A stretch of DNA of 64,000 nucleotides from Prescottella defluvii (GTDB lineage Bacteria > Actinomycetota > Actinomycetes > Mycobacteriales > Mycobacteriaceae). Shown here piece after piece: positions 5,737-16,786 of the stretch (the first letter of the stretch is position 1; every line of letters starts with the position of its first letter). The position numbers and the translations under genes are program-made. The stretch spans positions 62,001-126,000 of the forward strand of contig NZ_JPOC01000007.1 in NCBI RefSeq assembly GCF_000738775.1, written 5' to 3'. Below the pieces are notes generated by a model. The model saw only the letters and a program-made list of their open reading frames with translations. It was not told the origin of the DNA and did no database searches.

Positions 5737-6645
5737 TCAGGTCCGGCGGATGTGCGGGGCCGGCACCCCCACCAGGAGTCGGCGCGCGGCGTTCCAGGCC
5801 CGCAACACGATAGCGGCGACCGCCTCGGTGTCCGGTCCGAGCACTCGGATCCAGGCACCGCAGTCCTCCGGGAGGATGCTGACGCCGGCGCGAGCTTCCT
5901 CCGACGCACCGTCGATCGCCCCGTCCAGGACGTCGGCGAGTGCTGTCGCCGAGGCGAGGGGGCTGATCACGTACAGCGAGCCCATTACGTCGTGGCTGCC
6001 GAACACGGCCGGACCGGTCACGCCGCTGCCGGACGGGTGCAGCCGGATCGTGTCGACGGCGAGCAGGCCGCCGTCGGGCCGGGCAATCTCGAGATCCGAC
6101 GCGAGCACGTCGTAGGCGTGCCGTTCCCCGCGCGCCAGACGGCCTGCCAGCACCGTCTCCCCGATGATCACGGTGGCGGTGGGATCGACGGTGACTTCCG
6201 TCCGCTGGTGCAGGCGCGCGCCGCCGAACGGGATCAGCGGTTCGGGCAGGTACTCGACGAACGCCTTCTCCCCGGCCCGCAGCCGGACGGACTGCGTGGC
6301 GTAGTCCGTGTCCATGCGCTGCACTTTCGTCGACGCCTGCGTCGTGAGGTGCACCGAAGTGCCGGGACCGCAATCGAAGTCGAACCGCAGCCGGTCGCCC
6401 TGAACCAGCCCGCCACCTGTCGACATCAGGTACACGACGGGCAGGTCGGGACGCTCGGGATCGACGTACAGCGGACGCATGATCTGCAACGGCGGCTGCT
6501 GCCGGTGATGTGTGAGCTCGGTCCGGCCACCGATGACCGCGAATCCCAGTTCCAGGATCCCGTTCTTGCCCGGACTGCCTACCGGCAGCGTCTCCGGGGT
6601 GCCCGCGTAGGCGGCCACCACACCGGGCACGTCGGGCGTGCTCAT
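5737..6645 (-). CDS. ureD: urease accessory protein UreD (UreH)
   Basis: UreD, 302 residues, the scaffold that binds apo-urease and, with UreF and UreG, forms the complex through which CO2 and nickel enter the active site. Family segments seen are PLYVDPERPDLPVVYLMSTGGGLVQGD, TTQASTKVQRM (the TQxxTKVY region) and VEYLPEPLIPFGGARLHQ. It is the last gene of the urease operon; its ATG overlaps the ureG stop by 4 bp, indicating translational coupling. The length is normal for the family. Confidence 0.95.
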   Translation of the reverse strand: MSTPDVPGVVAAYAGTPETLPVGSPGKNGILELGFAVIGGRTELTHHRQQPPLQIMRPLYVDPERPDLPVVYLMSTGGGLVQGDRLRFDFDCGPGTSVHLTTQASTKVQRMDTDYATQSVRLRAGEKAFVEYLPEPLIPFGGARLHQRTEVTVDPTATVIIGETVLAGRLARGERHAYDVLASDLEIARPDGGLLAVDTIRLHPSGSGVTGPAVFGSHDVMGSLYVISPLASATALADVLDGAIDGASEEARAGVSILPEDCGAWIRVLGPDTEAVAAIVLRAWNAARRLLVGVPAPHIRRT

Positions 6646-7319
6646 GCCGGTTTCCTGAACGTGTCGAGGAAGTCCGCGATCTGTTCGAGCCCCTGTCCGG
6701 TGAGACAGTTCGTCAACTGCACCGGGCGTCCGTCGCGGACACGGTAGGCATCGGACTCCATCACGGACACATCGGCCCGCACGTACTGCGCGATGTCGAT
6801 CTTGTTGATCACCAACAGATCCGACTCGGTGATGCCCGGGCCACGCTTGCGTGGCATCTTCTCGCCCTCGGCGGTGTCGAGGACGAACAGGAACAGATCC
6901 ACCAGCACCGGACTGAAGGTCAGCGTGAGGTTGTCACCACCCGACTCGTACAGCAGCGTGTCGACGTCGGGGAACTGGTCGAGCAGTTCGGCACCGGCGG
7001 CCAGGTTCATCGTCGGGTCGTCACGGACCGCGGTGTGCGGACACGCGCCGGTCTCCACACCGACAACCTTTGCGGGGTCCAGGATTCCGTCGAGTGTGCG
7101 CCGGACGTGCTGAGCGTCCTCCTGGGTGTAGATGTCGTTGGTGATCACCGCGGGGCTGTACCCGCGCGCGGTCAGGACGGGGACCAGCGCCTCGATCAGC
7201 GCGGTCTTGCCGGAACCCACCGGCCCGCCGATTCCGACCCGGAGAACCCGGGACGTCTCGGAGGACTCGGCAAAATCGGAAAGCTCGGAAAGCTCGGAAA
7301 GCTCGGAAACCTCGGTCAT
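6642..7319 (-). CDS. ureG: urease accessory GTPase UreG
   Basis: UreG, 225 residues, the SIMIBI-class GTPase that carries Ni(II) to the UreD-UreF-urease complex. The P-loop GPVGSGKT is at residues 32-39 and the nickel-binding CPH motif at 93-95. LLYESGGDNL and LLVINKID (guanine specificity) follow. The first 23 residues are a non-conserved acidic/Ser-rich extension (SELSELSELSD) made by three exact copies of a 9-base unit. There is no His-rich N-terminus of the kind that substitutes for UreE in some UreG proteins. AGGAG is 5-6 bases before the ATG. Confidence 0.96.
   Translation of the reverse strand: MTEVSELSELSELSDFAESSETSRVLRVGIGGPVGSGKTALIEALVPVLTARGYSPAVITNDIYTQEDAQHVRRTLDGILDPAKVVGVETGACPHTAVRDDPTMNLAAGAELLDQFPDVDTLLYESGGDNLTLTFSPVLVDLFLFVLDTAEGEKMPRKRGPGITESDLLVINKIDIAQYVRADVSVMESDAYRVRDGRPVQLTNCLTGQGLEQIADFLDTFRKPA
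7282..7308. repeat. 9-bp tandem repeat inside ureG
   Basis: Three exact head-to-tail copies of AGCTCGGAA (7282-7290, 7291-7299, 7300-7308), flanked by degenerate copies on both sides. On the coding strand they specify the Ser-Glu-Leu repeats at the UreG N-terminus. Because the unit is a multiple of three, copy-number changes would alter length without shifting the frame. Confidence 0.9.
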
Positions 7320-7338: not shown

Positions 7339-8028
7339 TCAGCTGACGAACAGGCGGGCCTCGGCCCGCTCGTGTCGAGCCGACATCACATCGGCGACGG
7401 GTGTGCACCCGCCGATATCGTCGAGATTGCGGTGCAGCGCAGTCTCGGTGACCTCCTCGATCACCGGTGCGGCATCGGCCAGGATGCGTTGCGCCCGCAG
7501 GTGATCGGTGAGCCGCAGGCGCAGCGCCGCCCCGACCAGGCTGGACGAGAACGCGAACAGGTCGCCGGCCACGGCCTGCGCCACCTCGACTCCGCACGCC
7601 GCCGCCACGACCCCGGTCACGACGGGCTGCGTCCCCGGCGTGCGCTGGGCCCGCACCTCCACCGCGAAATCGTCGATGTCGCTGCGGCCGAACGTCTGCC
7701 GCGACACCGACAGCATCTGGTGTCCGGTGCGGGTGCATGCCCGCCGCAGCTCCCGATTGAGCTTGGTGGCGTACAGCCGCCGGTCCACCCGGCGCAGTTG
7801 CTCGGGGTCGCGTTCGCGGACAGCGGCGTGCGCCAACGCCACCGCGGTCGCGTCCGACGGCCCCACCGAGTTCCGGAGCAGATCGACCAGCAGGTCCGGC
7901 AGGGTCTCGGGGGTCACGGACTTCGATTGCGCGTAGCCCTCGAGTCCGTGCGAGAGCGTGTAGAAGCCCGCAGGGAACGCGGAGTCGGTGAGCTGCAGGG
8001 TCACCAGCAGTGCGGCCACATCGGTCAT
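7339..8028 (-). CDS. ureF: urease accessory protein UreF
   Basis: UreF, 229 residues from the ATG at 8028, the all-helical regulator that links UreD-urease to UreG and gates GTP-dependent nickel delivery. The family N-terminus LLVTLQLTDSAFPAGFYTLSHGLEGY is present, followed by RRACTRTGHQML and RAQRTPGTQPVVTGVVA. The open frame extends to 8247, but that part is antisense shadow of ureC; the chosen start lies 7 bp after the ureBC stop and fits the family N-terminus. Confidence 0.94.
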   Translation of the reverse strand: MTDVAALLVTLQLTDSAFPAGFYTLSHGLEGYAQSKSVTPETLPDLLVDLLRNSVGPSDATAVALAHAAVRERDPEQLRRVDRRLYATKLNRELRRACTRTGHQMLSVSRQTFGRSDIDDFAVEVRAQRTPGTQPVVTGVVAAACGVEVAQAVAGDLFAFSSSLVGAALRLRLTDHLRAQRILADAAPVIEEVTETALHRNLDDIGGCTPVADVMSARHERAEARLFVS

Positions 8029-8035
8029 GTCCGGC

Positions 8036-10201
8036 TCACACGATGTAGAACAGCTGGGTGAGCGGAAGGCGCTGCGCCGGAGCGATCGTCGCGGTCTTAC
8101 CGTCGGCGCGGACGTGATAGGTGTCCGGGTCGACGGTGATCTCGGGCGTCGCGGTGTTGCGGACCATGTCCTGCTTGCCGATCGTGCGGCAGCCCCGCAC
8201 CGCCACCACCGGAGACTGCAATCCGAGCTGCTCCGGGACACCGGCATCCAGTGCCGCCTGCGAGACGAACGTGAGCCGTGTGGAGCGCATCGCCGCCCCC
8301 AGCGCCCCGTACATCGGCCGGTAGCGGACCGGCTGCGGCGTCGAGATCGAGCCGTTGGGATCGCCCATCAGCGACCAGCAGATCAGCCCGCCCTTGACGA
8401 TCAGACTCGGCTTGGCACCGAACGAATGGACGGGCCACAGCACGATGTCCGCGAGCTTCCCGGGCTCGAGCGAACCGACATGATCGGCGACACCCGCCGC
8501 GAGCGCGGGGTTGATCGTCGTCTTCGCCACGTAGCGCAGAATGCGTTCGTTGTCGTTGCGGGACGTGCCGTCGGCCGCGGTGTCCTCGGGCAGCGGGCCC
8601 CGCTGGTCCTTGCAGTGGTGCGCCGTCTGGATGGCCCGCGTCCAGGTCTCCCCGACCCGGCCCATCGCCTGCGAGTCGGACGAGAAGATGGAGATGACGC
8701 CGTCGTCGTGCAGCACCGTCTCGGCCGCGATGGTCTCGGCCCGCACCCGCGAGTCGGCGAACGACACGTCCTCCGGGATGTCGTGCCGCAGGTGGTGACA
8801 CACCATCACCATGTCGAGCAGTTCGTCCACCGAGTTGATCGTGTACGGCAGCGTCGGATTGGTCGACGCCGGAAGCACGTTCGACTCCCCCGCGACCCGC
8901 AGGATGTCCGGTGCGTGCCCGCCGCCGGCGCCCTCGGTGTGGAACGTGTGGATGGTCCGGCCGTCGATCGCGGCGAGGGTGTCCTCGTAGAATCCGGACT
9001 CGTTGAGGGTGTCGGCGTGGATCGCGACCTGGACATCCATGTCGTCGGCCACACGCAGTGCCGCATCGATCGTGGCGGGTGTCGCGCCCCAGTCCTCGTG
9101 AATCTTGATCCCACACAACCCCGCCGCGATCTGCTCCGCCATCGCCGCGGGCAGCGAAGTCGCCTTGCCCAGCAGCCCGACGTTGACCGGCAGTTCCTCG
9201 ACGGCCTGCAGCATCCGGCCGATGTGCCACGGCCCCGGCGTGCACGTGGTGCCCTTGCTGCCGTCGGAGGGCCCGGTGCCGCCGCCGATCATCGTGGTGA
9301 CGCCGTTGCTGAGGGCCTCCTCCACCTGTTGCGGCGCCAGGAAGTGCACATGGGTGTCGACGGCGCCCGCCGTCGCGATCAGGTGCTCGCCCGAGATCAC
9401 CTCGGTGCCGGGTCCGATCACCAGATCCGGGTCCACCCCGTCCTGCGTGCGCGGATTGCCGGCCTTGCCGACGCCGACGATCCGGCCGCCGCGGACGCCG
9501 AGGTCGCCCTTGACGACACCCAGGATCGCGTCGAGCACCACGACGTTGGTGATCACCAGGTCCAGTGCACCGGACGCCGCCGTCGCGGCGGGGTCCTGCG
9601 CCATGCCGTCACGGATGGCCTTGCCGCCGCCGTACACGGCCTCGTCCCCGAAGGCACCCGTGTTGCAGTCCCGTTCGACCTCGACGACCAGGTTGGTGTC
9701 GGCGAGCGTGAAGCGATCGCCGGTCGACGGCCCGAACAGGTCCACATAGGTCCGGCGGGGCAGCACAGCAGGCCGGGGCTCCGCACGGTCCCGGACGGCG
9801 CCCGATTCGTCGGCGCCGGAGAGGAATCCGCGCTCGCGCGCCCGCTGGAAGACCCGCTCCCGGGTCCCCGGACCGTCGAGTGCGACGACGTCGTCACCGC
9901 CTCCGTCCACCAGGCCGGCGAAGCCCGCCAGTTCGCGGGTGCCACCGAAGTCGCACAGCGTCACGGTGCGGGTGTCACCGGGCTCGAACCGCACCGCCGT
10001 GCCCGACGCGATGTCGAGGTGCATGCCGTAGGTCGCGGCCCGGTCGAATCGCAGGGCCCGGTTCACCTCGAAGAAGTGGTAGTGCGAGCCGACCTGCACC
10101 GCGCGGTCACCGACGTTCGACACCGTGACCACGACTCGCCGCCGACCGGCGTTGAGGGGTACCGGCTCGTGGGCGTAGAGGTACTTCGCTCCCTCCGTCA
10201 T
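8036..10201 (-). CDS. ureC: urease, fused beta (UreB) and alpha (UreC) subunits
   Basis: One uninterrupted 721-codon frame encodes the urease beta domain (about residues 1-110, with [23 protein letters not shown] and the PGDTRTV segment) joined by a linker (about 111-146) to the complete alpha subunit (from [16 protein letters not shown]). It hydrolyses urea to ammonia and carbamate in the cytoplasm. All active-site residues are present at canonical spacing: nickel ligands H284, H286, H395, H421 and D509, carbamylated K366, and flap C468-H469. Three separate subunits are usual in bacteria; Helicobacter fuses gamma to beta instead. No internal ribosome site was noted at the junction. A GGAAAGGA element lies 12-13 bases before the ATG. 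Confidence 0.95.
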
Positions 10202-10311: not shown

Positions 10312-11073
10312 TCAGTGCCCGTGGCCGTGGCCGTGGCCGTGCCCGTGGCCCTCACCGGGACCGTGGCTGTGGGCGAAGCCCTGCCCGTGGTCGGCCTCGA
10401 GCCCGTCGTCGATCCCGTCGTGTCCGTGATCGAGCAGGTGCAGGGCATCGGACACCCGGGCCGCGACCACCCCGCGCAGCGCCGCGTCACCGAGCAGTGG
10501 GCCGCCGTCGACGACCCCCTCCCCCGGCGGGGGCGGAGCCGACCCCAGCCACGCCGGGAGGACGGTGATCTCGCGGGCGCCCAGTCGACGACACCGGTCG
10601 ATTCCCGCATCGAGGTCCGGATCACCGCCGAGCAGCGCCACCTCCACCAGACCGGAAGGTCCGAATTGTCGCACCAGCCGGGCGATTCGGAAGAGTTCGG
10701 CATCCTCGAACGGGCTTCCCGTAGGCGCCGTCACCAGTAGTGCGTCGGAGGCCGCGGCCACCGCACGCCCCCGCAACCACCCGACCAGATGGTCGGTTGC
10801 ACCCAGCGGCCGAGCAAGGGAAACCGGCGTCGAATTCGATTCCCTGCGTGCCCAACTCAACGCACGGGCGGCGTCCGCAACCAGGCCGGGATCGCGACCG
10901 AGGGTCATCGGAACAACGCAGAGCGGCGCGGAGGACGTGGCCCGCACGGCCGCGATTGCCTCCGCCAGGGCGCGCCCACCTGCGACGACGGTCCAACCGG
11001 GGTCGATCCGACGCAGGTACGCGGCGTCGGGGCACTCGTGCCCGCACACCAGGATCACGTTCGCGGCAATCAT
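10312..11073 (-). CDS. CbiX/sirohydrochlorin-chelatase-like protein with His-rich tail
   Basis: A 253-residue protein resembling the actinobacterial CbiX/sirohydrochlorin chelatase fold: N-terminal VILVCGHECPD, CVVPMTLGRDPGLVADAA, VEVALLGGDP and ITVLPAWLG. The His of CGHE (residue 12) could correspond to a chelatase metal ligand, but I see no second canonical His in the repeat half. The C-terminal 42 residues are exceptionally His-rich and end in six His-Gly-type repeats. It lies 4 bp after ureA and before ureBC, inside the urease operon, which lacks ureE. Inference: a nickel-binding chaperone or store that does the job of UreE, not a tetrapyrrole chelatase. No cobalamin or siroheme gene is adjacent. 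Confidence 0.8.
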   Translation of the reverse strand: MIAANVILVCGHECPDAAYLRRIDPGWTVVAGGRALAEAIAAVRATSSAPLCVVPMTLGRDPGLVADAARALSWARRESNSTPVSLARPLGATDHLVGWLRGRAVAAASDALLVTAPTGSPFEDAELFRIARLVRQFGPSGLVEVALLGGDPDLDAGIDRCRRLGAREITVLPAWLGSAPPPPGEGVVDGGPLLGDAALRGVVAARVSDALHLLDHGHDGIDDGLEADHGQGFAHSHGPGEGHGHGHGHGHGH

Positions 11074-11077
11074 CGGC

Positions 11078-11383
11078 TCATCCGCCGATCGGGTCGTGGC
11101 ACGACACCAGCTTGGTGCCGTCGACGAACGTGGCCTCCACCTGCACGAGTTGGGCCATGTCCCGCACGCCGGGCATCACGTCGTCGCCGGTCAGCACCTG
11201 TCGGCCCACCTGCATGCACTCCGCGACGGTACGGCCGTCGCGCGCACCCTCGACGATCGCCTCGCTGATCAGCGCGACCGCCTCGCCGTAGTTGAGCTTC
11301 AGACCTCGATCACGGCGACGGCGCGCCAGATCGGCCACGACGTGGATGTAGAGCTTGTCCATCTCGCGGGGACTGAGGTTCAT
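11078..11383 (-). CDS. ureA: urease gamma subunit UreA
   Basis: UreA, 101 residues from the ATG at 11383, the smallest structural subunit of urease. It matches the family end to end: [58 protein letters not shown] and the C-terminal [14 protein letters not shown]. It is the first gene of the urease operon. The reading frame is open further upstream to 11713, but that extension has no family similarity. Since UreB is fused to UreC here, UreA is the only free small subunit. Confidence 0.96.
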
Positions 11384-11721
11384 GCGGGCACTGTCCGTTC
11401 TCATCCACTGGGGATGCCTTGTCGATGGGTGCCGCGAACCAGGGGAGCGAGCGAGACGATCGGTCGCGAGCGCATGCAGCGGCTTCGGTTCCTGGAATCT
11501 GGCGGCGCCCAACATCTTACAGATTCTCGTCGAGCTATCAAACGCGCCCCTCCATCGGGAACTGCCACTGTGAGGGGGGTGACCGTCACCGCGTCGACGT
11601 CGGAATGTGGCCGGACCGAGTCGAATTCGACGATCCGACTTGCGCCCGGCTGCTACCTTCTCATCTGAACAGCCCCACATATGTCGGCTCCGTTCCCCCT
11701 CGCCCAGACCCACACCCGGGG
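11384..11721. other. divergent control region between ureA and nickel ABC importer
   Basis: A 338 bp gene-free stretch between two divergent operons. It holds two short perfect palindromes: GGTGACCGTCACC at 11578-11590 and GTCGAATTCGAC at 11620-11631. An AT-richer stretch lies near 11510-11545. I found no recognisable NikR or Nur box and no riboswitch structure. Transcription of both operons must start here, so nickel-dependent control of both is plausible but not shown. Confidence 0.5.
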
Positions 11722-13332
11722 ATGATCATGAAACTTGTTCCAGCTCTTTCCGTTTTCTCGATTGCGACGATTGCCCTGGTCGGCTGCTCGACGCCAGCGG
11801 CGTCCGGCGATCGTGGCGGAACCGCGCTGGTGCTCGCCGACGGCTACGAGCTGGGCAACTACAACCCCGTCGCCGGCTTCGGAGAGGCGGGTGAGGCCAA
11901 GGTGTACGACGGCCTGGTCCGGCTGACCGGCGGCCAGGACACCGGCATCCCGGTGCTCGAGCCCGCGCTGGCGGCGGAGATGCCGGTCCCCGACGCCGAC
12001 GCGACGGTGTGGACCGTCAAGGTCCGCGAGGGCGTCCGGTTCACCGACGGCACCGCGTTCGGCCCCGAGGACGTCGTCGCGACCTATCGCGCGATCCTCG
12101 ATCCCGCATCGGCATCACCGCTGGCCACGTCGTACGACATGCTCGAGTCGGTGGAGGCCACCGGCCCGGACACCGTCGAGTTCCGGCTCGCCTACCCGTA
12201 CGCGCCGTGGCCGACCAAACTGCTGCTCGGCATCGCCCCGGCCGAACGCCTCACCGGCGGGCCGGCCGAACAGTCGCCGCTCAACAGCGCACCGGTGGGC
12301 ACCGGCCCCTACAAGCTGGTGTCGCTGCGCGCCGACCAGGCGGTCTACGAGGCCAACGAGGACTACTGGGACGGCGCGCCGCAGGTGAAGAAACTCACCG
12401 TGGTCTACGTGCCGGACGACAACGCCCGCGCCCAGCGGATGGCGTCCGGCGAACTCGACGGCGCGAACATCCCGCCGCTCCTGGCGAACACGTTCGAAGG
12501 TCGCGACGGATACGAGGTGGTCGCCAACACCTCCGCGGACTGGCGCGGCGTGACACTGCCCGCCGACAACCCGGTCACCGCGGACCCGGCGATGCGGATG
12601 GCGCTCAACCTGGCGGTGGATCGCGGCGCGATGGTGACGAACATCCTCGGCGGCCACGGCCGGGCGGCGTCGACCCCGGTGCCCGAGGTGTACGGCGATT
12701 CGTACGAGGCGACGGCCGTCTTCCCGTTCGACCGGGCCCGTGCCGAGCAGATGCTGACCGACGCGGGCTGGGTGCCCGGCCCGGACGGGGTGCGCAGCAA
12801 GGACGGCGTCCGCGCCGAGTTCGACGTCATGTACTTCCCGCAGGACACGCTGCGCCGGGACCTGTCGCAGGCCTTCGCCTCCGACGCGTCGAAGATCGGG
12901 GTGCGGGTGAACGTCGAGGCCGTGGACCGCGGGGTGTTCCCGGACCAGCTCACGGCCAAGGCCGGGCTGCTCGGCGGCGGCGACCTGCCCTACGACCCGG
13001 ACACCCAGCTGTACTCGACGCTGCACTCGTCGTACGCGCAGCCCGGCGTCGGCAGCGGCTACGACAACGCCTCCGACTACGTGAACCCGCAGATCGACCG
13101 CGCGCTCGACGACGCCCGCCGCAGCATCGACCCGGCCGCGCGCGCCGCCGACTACCGCGCGGTGCAGAACGCGTACGTCGCCGACCCCGGCTACGTGATG
13201 CTGGTGTTCCTCGACCACACGTACGTGCTGCGGGGCAGCGACTGGACCGGGTCGACACCGATCCTCGAGCCGCACAGTCACGGCGTCAACTGGGGTCCGT
13301 GGTGGAATCTGCGGGACTGGACCCGTCCGTGA
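11722..13332 (+). CDS. ABC importer substrate-binding lipoprotein, nickel/peptide family 5
   Basis: A 536-residue family-5 solute-binding lipoprotein (OppA/NikA type). A lipobox ALVGC puts the lipidated Cys at residue 22 (ATG at 11722; an ATG at 11728 is also possible). Family features include [33 protein letters not shown] and [14 protein letters not shown]. It captures the substrate outside the membrane for the two permeases that follow. Divergence from the urease operon makes nickel, or a nickel-chelate complex, the likeliest cargo, though the family also carries peptides. Its TGA overlaps the GTG of the next gene. Confidence 0.9.
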
Positions 13333-14366
13333 CGACGACGTCCGCACCCCCGGAGGCCGCGACCGCCGCACCGCGGCGCAGCCTCCACGCCCGACGCCGC
13401 GAGGTCGCCCGAATGGCGCTGCGCCGGGCCGCCTTCGCGATCCCGCTGCTGATCGTGGTGTCGGCGGCGCTGTTCGCGCTGGCGTCGCGCTCGCCGTTCG
13501 ATCCCCTCGCCGGCTACCTCGGCGACCGCTACGTGACCACCAGCGACGCCGACCGGGCCCGGCTTGCCGCCGAACTGGGCCTGCACGACCCGTGGTGGAC
13601 GACGTACGGGCACTGGGTGAGTGGGCTGCTGTCCGGTGATCTCGGGGTCTCCCGCAGCTTCGGGCAGCCGGTCGCGGCCGTGATCGGTGAACGGCTGCCG
13701 TGGACGCTGCTACTCACGTGCCTGGGTCTGGGCCTGGCGATCGTGGTGTCGTTCGTGCTCGGCGTGTGGTCCGGCGCGCGACCGGGCGGTCTGCTGGACC
13801 GGGTGGTGGCGCCGCTCGCCTCGGTCGTGCAGGCCACCCCGCCGTTCGTGCTGTCCCTCGGTGCGGTCGCGGTGTTCGCGCTGTCGCTGGGGTGGCTGCC
13901 CGTCGCGGGCCTCACCGACGCCGGGAGCGATCCGACGTTCGGTCAGGTGGCCGAGCACCTCGTGCTGCCGGTGACCGTGCTCGCGGTCTCTCAGGTGCCG
14001 TGGCTGGCGCTGTCGGTGCGGCAGTCGGTGCGGGACGCGATCGGCTCGGACGCCGTCCGCGGGGCCCGCGCCCGCGGCATCCCGGAACGGACGATCCTGC
14101 TGCGGCACGTCGTCCCGGTGGCGCTCGGACCGTTCGTGACCGTGATCGGCCTGCGGCTGCCGGAGATCATCGTCGGCGCGGCGATCGTCGAGGAGGTGTT
14201 CTCATGGCCCGGGATCGCCGGGGCCGTGGTCACGTCCGCGCGCGAACTCGACTTCCCGCTGCTCGCCGCGCTCACCGTCGGCACGACGCTGATCGTGCTG
14301 ATCGGATCGCTGCTCGCCGACGTCGCGCTGACACTGCTCGATCCGCGGGTGAGCACCGATGGGTAG
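13329..14366 (+). CDS. ABC importer permease 1 (NikB/DppB type)
   Basis: A 345-residue inner-membrane permease starting at GTG 13329, whose codon overlaps the preceding stop (GTGA). It has the DppB-type layout: an N-terminal helix, a periplasmic loop with ELGLHDPWWTTYGHWVSGLLSGDLGVSRSF, about six helices, and the EAA cytoplasmic loop RGARARGIPERTILLRHVVPVALGP that contacts the ATPases. The first 35 residues are a basic/Ala-rich cytoplasmic extension. A long upstream open frame overlapping the lipoprotein gene is a shadow. Confidence 0.9.
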   Translation: MTTTSAPPEAATAAPRRSLHARRREVARMALRRAAFAIPLLIVVSAALFALASRSPFDPLAGYLGDRYVTTSDADRARLAAELGLHDPWWTTYGHWVSGLLSGDLGVSRSFGQPVAAVIGERLPWTLLLTCLGLGLAIVVSFVLGVWSGARPGGLLDRVVAPLASVVQATPPFVLSLGAVAVFALSLGWLPVAGLTDAGSDPTFGQVAEHLVLPVTVLAVSQVPWLALSVRQSVRDAIGSDAVRGARARGIPERTILLRHVVPVALGPFVTVIGLRLPEIIVGAAIVEEVFSWPGIAGAVVTSARELDFPLLAALTVGTTLIVLIGSLLADVALTLLDPRVSTDG

Positions 14367-15195
14367 GCTCGCACGTCTCGACCGTCGGCTGCTGGTCTCT
14401 GCGGTCGTGCTGACCGCGATCGTCGCGTACGCCGTTCTGGTGCCGTGGTTCGCGGGCATCGATAACCGGCTCACCGACTTCGCCGACGCGCGCCTGGCAC
14501 CGAGCGCCGAACACTGGTTCGGCACCGACAATGCGGGACGCGACCTGTTCGTCCGGGTGGCGGCCGGGCTGCGGATCTCGCTGTTCATCGCCGCGGTGTG
14601 CGCGATCGTCTCCACGGTCCTGGGCACCGGGATCGGCGTGGCCGCAGCAACTTTCGGAGGATGGTTCGACCGGATCGTCATGCGTGTGGTCGACGGCGTC
14701 AACGCCCTCCCCCACCTGCTGCTGGGCATCGTCATCGTGGCGCTGTTCCGGGGCAACATCCCGGCGATCATCGCGTCGATCGCCCTGACCCACTGGACGC
14801 AGGTCGCGCGCATCGCACGTTCCGAGGTCCTCGGCGTGCGCGGCCGCGAGTACGTCGACGCCGCCCACCTCGCGGGCGCCGGACGATGGCACGTGATGCG
14901 ACACCACCTGGCCCCGGCCGCCGCCGGACAGGCCCTCATCGCGGTGGTACTGCTGCTGCCGCACGCCATCTGGCACGAGACGACGCTGTCGTTCCTCGGC
15001 CTCGGTCTGCCCCCACACCAGCCGTCGTTGGGAACGCTTCTGCAGGAAGCGCGTTCGACGATGCTCCTCGGCGGATGGTGGACACTCGCATTCCCGTCAC
15101 TGTTGCTGGTGGCGGCGACACTCGCGGTCGCCGGCATCGGGGCGTCCCTGCGTGACCGGATCAGCCCCCCGATCCTGGAAAGGGCACCTCGATGA
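14359..15195 (+). CDS. ABC importer permease 2 (NikC/DppC type)
   Basis: A 278-residue DppC/NikC-type permease, overlapping permease 1 by 8 bp. Diagnostic segments are HWFGTDNAGRDLFVRVAAGLRISL near residues 53-76, VVDGVNALPHLLLGIVIVALF, and the EAA loop REYVDAAHLAGAGRWHVMRHHLAPAA, followed by LSFLGLGLPPHQPSLG. It pairs with permease 1 to form the channel. The ATG of the following ATPase overlaps its stop by 4 bp. Confidence 0.92.
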   Translation: MGRLARLDRRLLVSAVVLTAIVAYAVLVPWFAGIDNRLTDFADARLAPSAEHWFGTDNAGRDLFVRVAAGLRISLFIAAVCAIVSTVLGTGIGVAAATFGGWFDRIVMRVVDGVNALPHLLLGIVIVALFRGNIPAIIASIALTHWTQVARIARSEVLGVRGREYVDAAHLAGAGRWHVMRHHLAPAAAGQALIAVVLLLPHAIWHETTLSFLGLGLPPHQPSLGTLLQEARSTMLLGGWWTLAFPSLLLVAATLAVAGIGASLRDRISPPILERAPR

Positions 15196-16121
15196 CCGCC
15201 GCGCTCACCGTGGACGCGCTCACCGTCCGGATCCCGGTCGGCACCGGAGTCGTGCACGCCGCCACCGACGTGAGCCTGACACTCGAGACCGGCGGCACCC
15301 ACGCCGTCGTCGGCGAATCCGGTTGCGGCAAATCGATAGTCGCGTCCGCGATCTGCGGGCTGCTGCCACCCCACGCGCGCGTGTCCGGATCCGTCCGGCT
15401 GACGTCCGACGGCGGGGACGACGTCGAGATCGTGGGCGCTCGCGAACGGGTCCTGCGCACCGTCCGGGGACGCCGGATCGCCCTCGTCCCGCAATCCGCC
15501 GCCACCTACCTGACGCCGGTCCGCACCATCGGTGCACAACTCGACGAGACCCTACGACACCTCGAGAGCCGTTACGGCGGCAGCGAACTCCTCGACCGCG
15601 TCGGACTCGACGCGCGCTGCCGCAACCTGTACCCCCACGAGCTGTCCGGCGGGATGGCGCAGCGGGCGGCGATCGCGTTCGCGTTGGCGGGCGACCCGGA
15701 GGTGATCGTCGCGGACGAACCGACGTCCAGCCTCGACCCCGACCTCACCGAGCGGATCCTGACCCTCCTGGGGGGCTGCGCGGCGTCCGGTGCCGCGGTC
15801 CTGCTCATCACCCACGACATCGCCGCGGTTGCCGGGCACGCCGACACCGTGTCGGTGATGTACGCCGGCCGGATCCTCGAATCCGGTCCGGCCACAGAGG
15901 TACTCGACGATCCGTGGCACGACTACACGAAGGACCTGATGGCGGCACTGCCCCACAACGGACTGCGTCCCATGCCGGGGTCCCCACCGGAACTGACCGA
16001 CCTGCCCGACGACTGCGTCTACCACCTGCGACGCCCGGACACCGCCTTCTCGGGCGGCCGAACCCACCTGGTGCGGACCGGCGACCGCACCGTCCGCACC
16101 CGGATCGGAGGAACCGAGTGA
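15192..16121 (+). CDS. ABC importer ATPase 1 (NikD/OppD type)
   Basis: A 309-residue ABC ATPase. Walker A is GESGCGKS, the signature LSGGMAQRAAIAFAL, Walker B VIVADEPTSSLD, and the H-loop LLITHDIAAV. The C-terminal extension carries the oligopeptide/dipeptide-type tail after LDDPWHDYTKDLMAALP, where family members often have a Cys cluster; only one Cys is seen here (DDCVYH). It energises import by the two permeases together with the next gene. Confidence 0.92.
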   Translation: MTAALTVDALTVRIPVGTGVVHAATDVSLTLETGGTHAVVGESGCGKSIVASAICGLLPPHARVSGSVRLTSDGGDDVEIVGARERVLRTVRGRRIALVPQSAATYLTPVRTIGAQLDETLRHLESRYGGSELLDRVGLDARCRNLYPHELSGGMAQRAAIAFALAGDPEVIVADEPTSSLDPDLTERILTLLGGCAASGAAVLLITHDIAAVAGHADTVSVMYAGRILESGPATEVLDDPWHDYTKDLMAALPHNGLRPMPGSPPELTDLPDDCVYHLRRPDTAFSGGRTHLVRTGDRTVRTRIGGTE

Positions 16122-16786
16122 GCCTGACCGCCGAAGCAATCCGCGCCGGACACGACCGCGGCGCTCCCGTCCTCGACGGCGCCGGGATCGAGATTCCGCG
16201 CGGCCGGACCATCGGACTGACCGGGCCGTCCGGTGCCGGAAAGACGACCCTCGCCAGAGTGTGCGCGCTGCTGCACCAACCGTGGTCCGGACAGGTCCAC
16301 ATCGACGGGGTGGCCGTCGGCCGCCGCGCCGACGCGCCACCCGAGACCCGGCGGGCGATTGCGATGCTGTTCCAGTCCCCGCGCCAGTCGACGTCGCCGC
16401 GGTTGACGCTCGAGCGGATCGTCGCGGAACCGCTTGCGCTGTCGCGGGTTCCGCGGGTCGAACGCGCGGGCATCGTGCGCGCCGCGGCCGCGCGAGTGGG
16501 GCTCACGCCGGACCTGCTGACCCGTCGCCCACACCAGGTGAGCGACGGACAGCTGCAACGAGCCTGTCTCGCAAGAGCTCTGGTGCAGCGACCGCGCTAT
16601 CTGATCTGCGACGAGATGACCGCAATGCTCGACCCTGCAACCACCGCTGCCCTTGTCGCGGTGCTGCGCGAGGAGACGCGGACCGGGCTGGGCGTACTCG
16701 CCGTCAGCCACGACCACGCACTGCTCGAGGTGTGGGCCGACGACGTCGTCGAACTGCCCCTCACCGGCGCCGCGCGCACTCCGTGA
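16118..16786 (+). CDS. ABC importer ATPase 2 (NikE/OppF type), short
   Basis: A 222-residue ABC ATPase beginning at GTG 16118, which overlaps the previous stop. Walker A is GPSGAGKT and Walker B YLICDEMTAMLD, with the H-loop AVSHDH. The signature reads VSDGQLQR where LSGGQ is usual, so one Gly is replaced by Asp; such variants exist in NikE-like subunits. It is shorter than typical OppF/NikE proteins because it lacks the C-terminal tail. It is the last gene of the importer operon. Confidence 0.88.
   Translation: MSLTAEAIRAGHDRGAPVLDGAGIEIPRGRTIGLTGPSGAGKTTLARVCALLHQPWSGQVHIDGVAVGRRADAPPETRRAIAMLFQSPRQSTSPRLTLERIVAEPLALSRVPRVERAGIVRAAAARVGLTPDLLTRRPHQVSDGQLQRACLARALVQRPRYLICDEMTAMLDPATTAALVAVLREETRTGLGVLAVSHDHALLEVWADDVVELPLTGAARTP

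Follow-up and report, generated by a model that had tools for sequence, protein, structure and literature searches.

How is nickel supplied to a urease whose operon encodes neither the chaperone UreE nor a UreG with a His-rich N-terminus? The question is raised by a urease operon in the window, the whole 64,000-nucleotide stretch of DNA that was analysed here, and a possible answer lies within the operon itself, in the product of a gene (here called X) that stands between the urease structural genes.

A chelatase-like protein within a urease operon

The genes of the operon run on the minus strand in the order ureA, X, fused ureBC, ureF, ureG and ureD. X (10312..11073, minus strand, 253 aa) encodes a putative pseudo-chelatase of the CbiX/SirB fold with a His tail and is proposed to be a urease nickel chaperone or store; its C-terminal end reads HSHGPGEGHGHGHGHGHGH (translation of ORF 10312-11073, minus strand). 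From the coordinates, 4 bases separate the ureA stop from the X start and 110 bases separate the X end from ureBC. The gene ureA (urease gamma; 11078..11383, minus strand) matches PF00547 with 146 bits, the match beginning at a segment of 10 protein letters, and the ureBC fusion (urease beta and alpha; 8036..10201, minus strand) matches PF00699, PF00449 and PF01979 as well as NF009686 (928 bits). These are followed on the same strand by ureF (7339..8028; PF01730, 127 bits; start set by homology), ureG (6642..7319; TIGR00101, 249 bits against a cut-off of 204) and ureD (5737..6645; PF01774, 188 bits). UreG has a CPH motif at residue 93, and its N-terminus, which opens MTEVSELSELSELSDFAESSETSR, is not His-rich, with zero His ahead of the P-loop. 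The same N-terminus is longer in the window (7248-7319) and contains an SEL repeat; five relatives in the genus begin MTDVLRV directly. Gene-by-gene annotation of the operon found no ureE. The initial annotation had described an operon of ureA, ureBC, ureF, ureG and ureD without ureE, a UreG without a His extension and, amid these genes, a chelatase-fold protein with a His/Gly tail; annotation of the genes and of X itself (PF01903, tail residues 219-253) confirms this description.

Fold, active site and tail of X

From its structural model, X is predicted to have the two-lobed alpha/beta class II chelatase fold of the CbiX/SirB/CfbA superfamily. Window X matches PF01903 (CbiX) with 29.4 bits by hmmscan (cut-off 22) and with 20.2 bits, under the cut-off, in the whole-genome search; the family matches 9 of the 10 X proteins at E up to 0.1. 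The top Foldseek match of the X model is FetB of P. gingivalis (PDB 9b86). A search of solved-structure sequences with X as the only query had no convincing match (best E 0.52), and the closest solved sequences, weakly so (E 0.04), are annotated as sirohydrochlorin cobaltochelatase.

Active chelatases can be recognized by a catalytic His pair (SirB His10 and His76) and a metal-supporting Glu (SirB Glu43), and X has only the first of these residues. The GHE motif, which contains His12-Glu13 (11035..11040, minus strand), is invariant in 10/10 X; His12 aligns to SirB His10, and the His10-like residue is retained in every X. The His76-like residue, which is His in 32/32 compared chelatases, is missing in 10/10 X (G, A, E or V instead), and the Glu43-like segment is deleted in all ten (E or D in 30/32 chelatases, with a gap in 2 partial rows). 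Glu43 is not strictly conserved in CfbA. Alignment thus indicates that X lost the chelatase Glu and the second catalytic His while the first was kept. An earlier argument, that the fold of the Ni-chelatase CfbA makes nickel chemistry natural for X, is weakened by the missing second catalytic His and Glu segment. Conserved motifs of the body are GHE, GRD, P..DAEL and PLL. A Cys-His-Cys site was considered and rejected: the six genus proteins read CGHEC at this point and the remaining four GGHES, so the Cys residues of X are not general.

The His/Gly tail of window X spans residues 219-253 (10315..10419, minus strand) in the alignment of 10 X and contains 9 His. All ten X have such a tail, with 31-128 aa counted from the DG motif and 8-32 His, and it is retained in all six genus X. 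The longest occurs in the X of genome G425 (L109:9204-10244), where 128 residues from the DG motif include 32 His in repeated HSHGPGEGH-like units. Values of dN/dS for X range from 0.16 to 0.35 over 15 pairs, and X is under purifying selection.

Distribution of X and its linkage to urease

X occurs in 6/14 genus genomes, the five other copies being 73-84% identical to window X. These are the same six genomes in which UreBC is at least 90% identical to window UreBC, and they have the gene order and a divergent transporter in common. A first search of 298 genomes of the order matched six besides the window (E 1e-6 to 1e-10), all of them chelatases by their motifs or similarity to CbiX. Restriction of X to one genus, as these first searches suggested, was overturned by a profile search of 394 genomes of the class, in which 64 genomes have matches. 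Full-length X is present in five of these, the window genome plus G425, G602, G592 and G652, the last four from three other families. The four non-window X match at E 1e-46 to 1e-65; the next match is at 1.5e-12. In these four genomes the order is ureA-X-ureB-ureC-F-G-D, and in G602 ureBC aligns as a single stretch. Full-length X therefore always stands as ureA-X-ureB(C)-F-G-D (10/10 genomes, 6 in the genus and 4 elsewhere), and the urease linkage that had been proposed for X is borne out.

The immediate neighbours of X are urease genes in 10/10 cases (further flanks were annotated in part, for the window). Conserved tetrapyrrole-chelatase activity linked to cobalamin genes had been named as a finding that would count against a urease role, and no such trait was found: neighbours are urease genes in 10/10 and the active-site residues are lost. 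On the same grounds X as a cobalamin CbiX is rejected. The weaker relatives read in translation (L003, L004, L005, L007, L008 and L017) have the chelatase motifs, and L017 adjoins cobalamin-type genes by eye; L006 likewise has a chelatase frame. By sequence comparison X is a distinct protein family.

Two plasmids also carry X. A plasmid of Streptomyces sp. NBC_01237 has the full ureA-X-ureB(C)-F-G-D order. In Embleya plasmid NZ_CP108777.1 (L134:7929-9432), X adjoins ureB, and none of ureA, C, F, G and D was found within 8 kb; this ureB has a Lys/Pro/Gly/Ser-rich C-terminal extension, and the locus is a remnant or something else.

UreE and the UreG N-terminus

A single UreE (PF02814, E 1.1e-17) is present in the window genome (5.13 Mb, 99.98% complete). 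It belongs to a second urease operon (contig C19, L023:3297-8733) with the order ureA-BC-E-F-G-D, and the proteins that it shares with the X operon are roughly 32-62% identical. The statement that ureE is missing is therefore true of the X operon only and not of the genome, and displacement of UreE inside the same operon is rejected. A second, ureE-bearing operon is also present in 3/5 other X-bearing genus genomes. UreE_N (PF02814) is unmatched in 6/10 X genomes, which are G300, G307 and 4/4 outside the genus; the other 4/10 have UreE in a separate urease operon. The X proteins themselves have no PF02814 match in 10/10 cases at E up to 0.1. The proposal that X stands in place of UreE is thus partly supported: UreE is absent from the operon but not from the window genome, and the expected co-occurrence of X with UreE absence is seen in six genomes but not in four.

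Urease without UreE is the norm in this order: among 298 genomes sampled, UreG was found in 164 (E up to 1e-30) and UreE in 15. The earlier suggestion that UreE absence points to a substitute is thus right in so far as UreE, His-rich UreG and X are complementary, but such absence is ordinary here and the usual substitute is His-rich UreG. What sets the X operon apart is the pairing of X with a UreG that has no His stretch, not the absence of UreE.

This complementarity was surveyed in 51 operons plus four class operons, which were hand-picked, with kinship uncorrected. Selection of the 40 order operons was manual, among the matches listed (the three closest relatives, five UreE carriers and otherwise about one per genus); it passed over genera whose matches were unlisted or close to a contig end. 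UreG starts were set by a simple rule of ribosome site and codon, and the four class operons were read by eye. At least 3 His precede the UreG P-loop in 0/10 X operons, 0/9 UreE operons and 34/36 operons with neither; in the X operons the number is zero in 10/10 UreG. The count of 34 comprises 33/36 by script and L065 (5 His, re-read), and nine of the 36 have just 3. Operons with neither were scored per operon, and the genomes of two of them (G220 L041 and G160 L048) carry UreE elsewhere. Comparing 0/19 with 34/36 by a Fisher test yields p 7e-13, which serves as a description and not as a probability because the operons are related and hand-picked. The two exceptions among operons with neither are G299 and G003; in G003 (L054) UreG is on a very long branch, and His stretch, UreE and X are all missing. 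At L051, ureG is present and ureA and ureC are unmatched within its 12 kb. Genomes without UreE mostly have a His-stretch UreG according to Haas et al. (2009; part of PMC2770081), and X adds a third state to this rule. Across the operons compared, UreE, His-rich UreG and X are complementary in distribution.

UreG also traces the history of the X operon. UreG at least 75% identical to that of the window (75-100%) is found in the same 5/394 class genomes as full-length X, with the next at 60% or less. In the order sample, UreG of G261, G220 and G176 is 67-71% identical and belongs to operons without X and with His-rich UreG; in the genus, UreG of G299 is 84% identical in an operon without X. In the UreG tree (55 rows, midpoint root), G299 groups with the ten X operons in a single clade (support 100/99), the His-rich UreG operons of G220, G261 and G176 are its sisters (98/91), and a clade of six UreE operons joins next with weak support (92/34); three more UreE operons lie further out. 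The G299 operon (L024:3600-11200) has the order ureA-B-C-F-G-D, with no X, UreE match or His-rich UreG, in a genome that is 79% complete and with ureB/C, F and D in broken frames. An apparent urea-transporter gene precedes it by eye. Since G299 is nested inside the X clade, the simplest account is that it probably lost X.

The divergent transporter

Divergent from ureA is a gene for a NikA/oligopeptide-type solute-binding lipoprotein (11728..13332, plus strand; start set by homology), for which the best NCBIfam match is NikA (TIGR02294) with 155 bits, under the cut-off of 393. An 84-92% identical copy adjoins X in 5/5 other genus operons. It is followed on the plus strand by two permeases of a Nik/Opp-type ABC transporter (13416-14366 and 14359-15195; Opp/Nik permease families) and two ATPases of the same transporter (15192-16121 and about 16055-16786; Opp/Nik ATPase families), the best matches being under cut-offs. 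Within this span (13416..16786), the coordinates of the first permease and the second ATPase are given with the start not fixed. Both permeases and the first ATPase are kept in 5/5 other genus X operons. The models matched across the transporter are NikA, NikB/C- and Opp-type, all under their cut-offs. The gap between ureA and the transporter (11384-11727) contains blocks conserved across six genomes; most of these genomes have a GGCGCC palindrome close to ureA, possibly a shared operator. No Nur/NikR box was seen in this gap in a by-eye look at the six-genome alignment.

Proposed function of X and alternatives

The reading favoured here, to which we give a probability of about two in three, is that X descends from a chelatase, is now a pseudo-enzyme and serves UreG as a urease nickel chaperone or store. 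A two-lobed sirohydrochlorin chelatase (CbiX/SirB) would have become a urease-dedicated nickel-handling protein by losing the residues that metallate a ring and keeping a His-rich tail such as occurs on some actinobacterial CbiX. The tail, possibly together with the invariant His12-Glu13 site, would collect Ni(II), and X would pass it to the CPH site of the tail-less UreG; Ni-loaded UreG, with UreF and UreD, would then load urease. X would fill the slot that is held elsewhere by UreE or by the His-rich UreG N-terminus. That X hands nickel to UreG is a step that we infer from its being His-rich and urease-linked. Nickel binding by X, its docking to UreG and its need for urease activity are likewise predictions from sequence and gene context. 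A bolder version, which seems to us evenly poised, is that X represents a third, non-homologous urease nickel route in which an ex-chelatase metallochaperone uses its His12-Glu13 body in nickel selection and UreG docking, and that this route was swapped for UreE or His-rich UreG in one lineage and spread across actinobacterial families.

Nickel donation by X is consistent with the genome G300, apparently the R. equi type strain DSM 20307, in which the X operon is the only UreBC match and UreE has no match. At 24 h the urease of DSM 20307 is weakly positive and by 48 h it is positive; that of strain 103S is weak at 48 h (both from part of PMC11893733). For 103S the urease is listed as REQ45360-410, a range compatible with a six-gene operon (part of PMC2947987). 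The C-terminal Fe-S and His-rich region of CbiX-L is dispensable for cobalt insertion and has therefore been proposed to serve in metal storage or delivery (part of PMC7689651). Against the same reading stand G299, which is nested in the X clade and has no visible nickel module, and likewise G003; HypA in 11/14 genus genomes, G300 included; the Embleya plasmid, where X is beside ureB only (within 8 kb); and G261, G220 and G176, with UreG at 67-71% and without X, though with His-rich UreG.

The best-surviving alternative, unlikely in our estimate, is that X, tuned to urease, buffers or stores nickel in the manner of Hpn or the SlyD tail, without direct hand-over to UreG and with a body that only carries the tail. 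The very variable tail length (31-128 aa from the DG motif) suits a store, as does the tail of E. coli SlyD, which takes up several Ni and is regarded as one (part of PMC7055735); however, X complements UreE and His-rich UreG, which are both urease-specific, its operon position is fixed and its body (GHE, GRD, P..DAEL, PLL) shows more conservation than a simple tail carrier would require. Distinctly less probable is a supply of nickel from HypA/HypB, as in H. pylori, with X employed otherwise as a UreA/UreB scaffold or a regulator. HypB has been proposed for cases in which UreE and His-rich UreG are both missing (part of PMC2770081), HypA is common in the genus and G299 manages without X, whereas G307 has an X operon with no UreE match and no HypA match, and every X retains its His tail.

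We consider it very improbable that X is only inherited along with one lineage of urease operons, as a passenger or as a gene in decay: it is patchy, confined to one operon clade and once on a plasmid, with a loss in G299 and a remnant on the Embleya plasmid, but its dN/dS is 0.16-0.35 over 15 pairs, it is retained across four families and no X operon has a UreG His extension. Continued tetrapyrrole chelation, yielding Ni-/Co-corphin or siroheme, is slightly less probable still: the class II fold and first catalytic His are retained and CfbA of the same fold uses Ni (part of PMC11301274), but all 10 X lack the second catalytic His and have a deletion of the Glu segment, the immediate neighbours are urease genes and the window genome has two further CbiX-family proteins above the Pfam cut-off.

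Significance and comparison with known systems

A nickel chaperone for urease is a known kind of protein; the protein family proposed for the role is new. The literature found on CbiX/sirohydrochlorin and urease does not describe any chelatase-like gene within a urease operon, nor do passages of PMC2667541, PMC2770081, PMC7689651, PMC7055735, PMC9164220, PMC11301274, PMC13332983, PMC2947987 or PMC11893733. Nickel supply of ureases without UreE is only partly explained: Frankia sp. CcI3 and Bradyrhizobium japonicum have neither UreE nor a His-stretch UreG (Haas et al. 2009; part of PMC2770081). X offers a testable answer for one operon class and a gene to delete in urease-positive actinobacteria, and it would show a route from an enzyme that metallates a cofactor to one that metallates a protein.

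Like X, UreE (PF02814) occurs in a urease operon with a tail-less UreG and is inferred to donate Ni to UreG, and several UreE in the surveyed genomes end in a short His stretch as X ends in a tail; however, the two sequences are unrelated, and X lies between ureA and ureB whereas UreE lies between ureC and ureF. His-rich UreG resembles X in that its His stretch is thought to handle nickel without UreE (Haas et al. 2009; part of PMC2770081). In X operons, by contrast, UreG has no His stretch, which is instead part of a distinct protein with the chelatase fold.

CbiX-L and SirB share with X the two-lobed class II chelatase fold and the first catalytic His, and a His-rich C-terminal tail as in X is present in 4/6 CbiX examined by translation (L003, L005, L008 and L017). 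These four are cobalamin-type CbiX and a possible source of the X tail. X differs from CbiX-L/SirB in its loss of the second His and the Glu and in its urease neighbours, and from CbiX-L in that the 10 X, which do have the His-rich region, showed no C-terminal Fe-S Cys motif such as was seen in CbiX translations. FetB (PDB 9b86) is, we assume, a chelatase-like haem-binding protein, and haem binding on such a fold would be a precedent for its reuse; FetB differs from X in presumably handling haem and not serving urease. CfbA belongs to the same superfamily as X and works with Ni, but it forms a small homodimer that contains two His9/His75 pairs (part of PMC11301274), whereas X is two-lobed and has one His of the pair.
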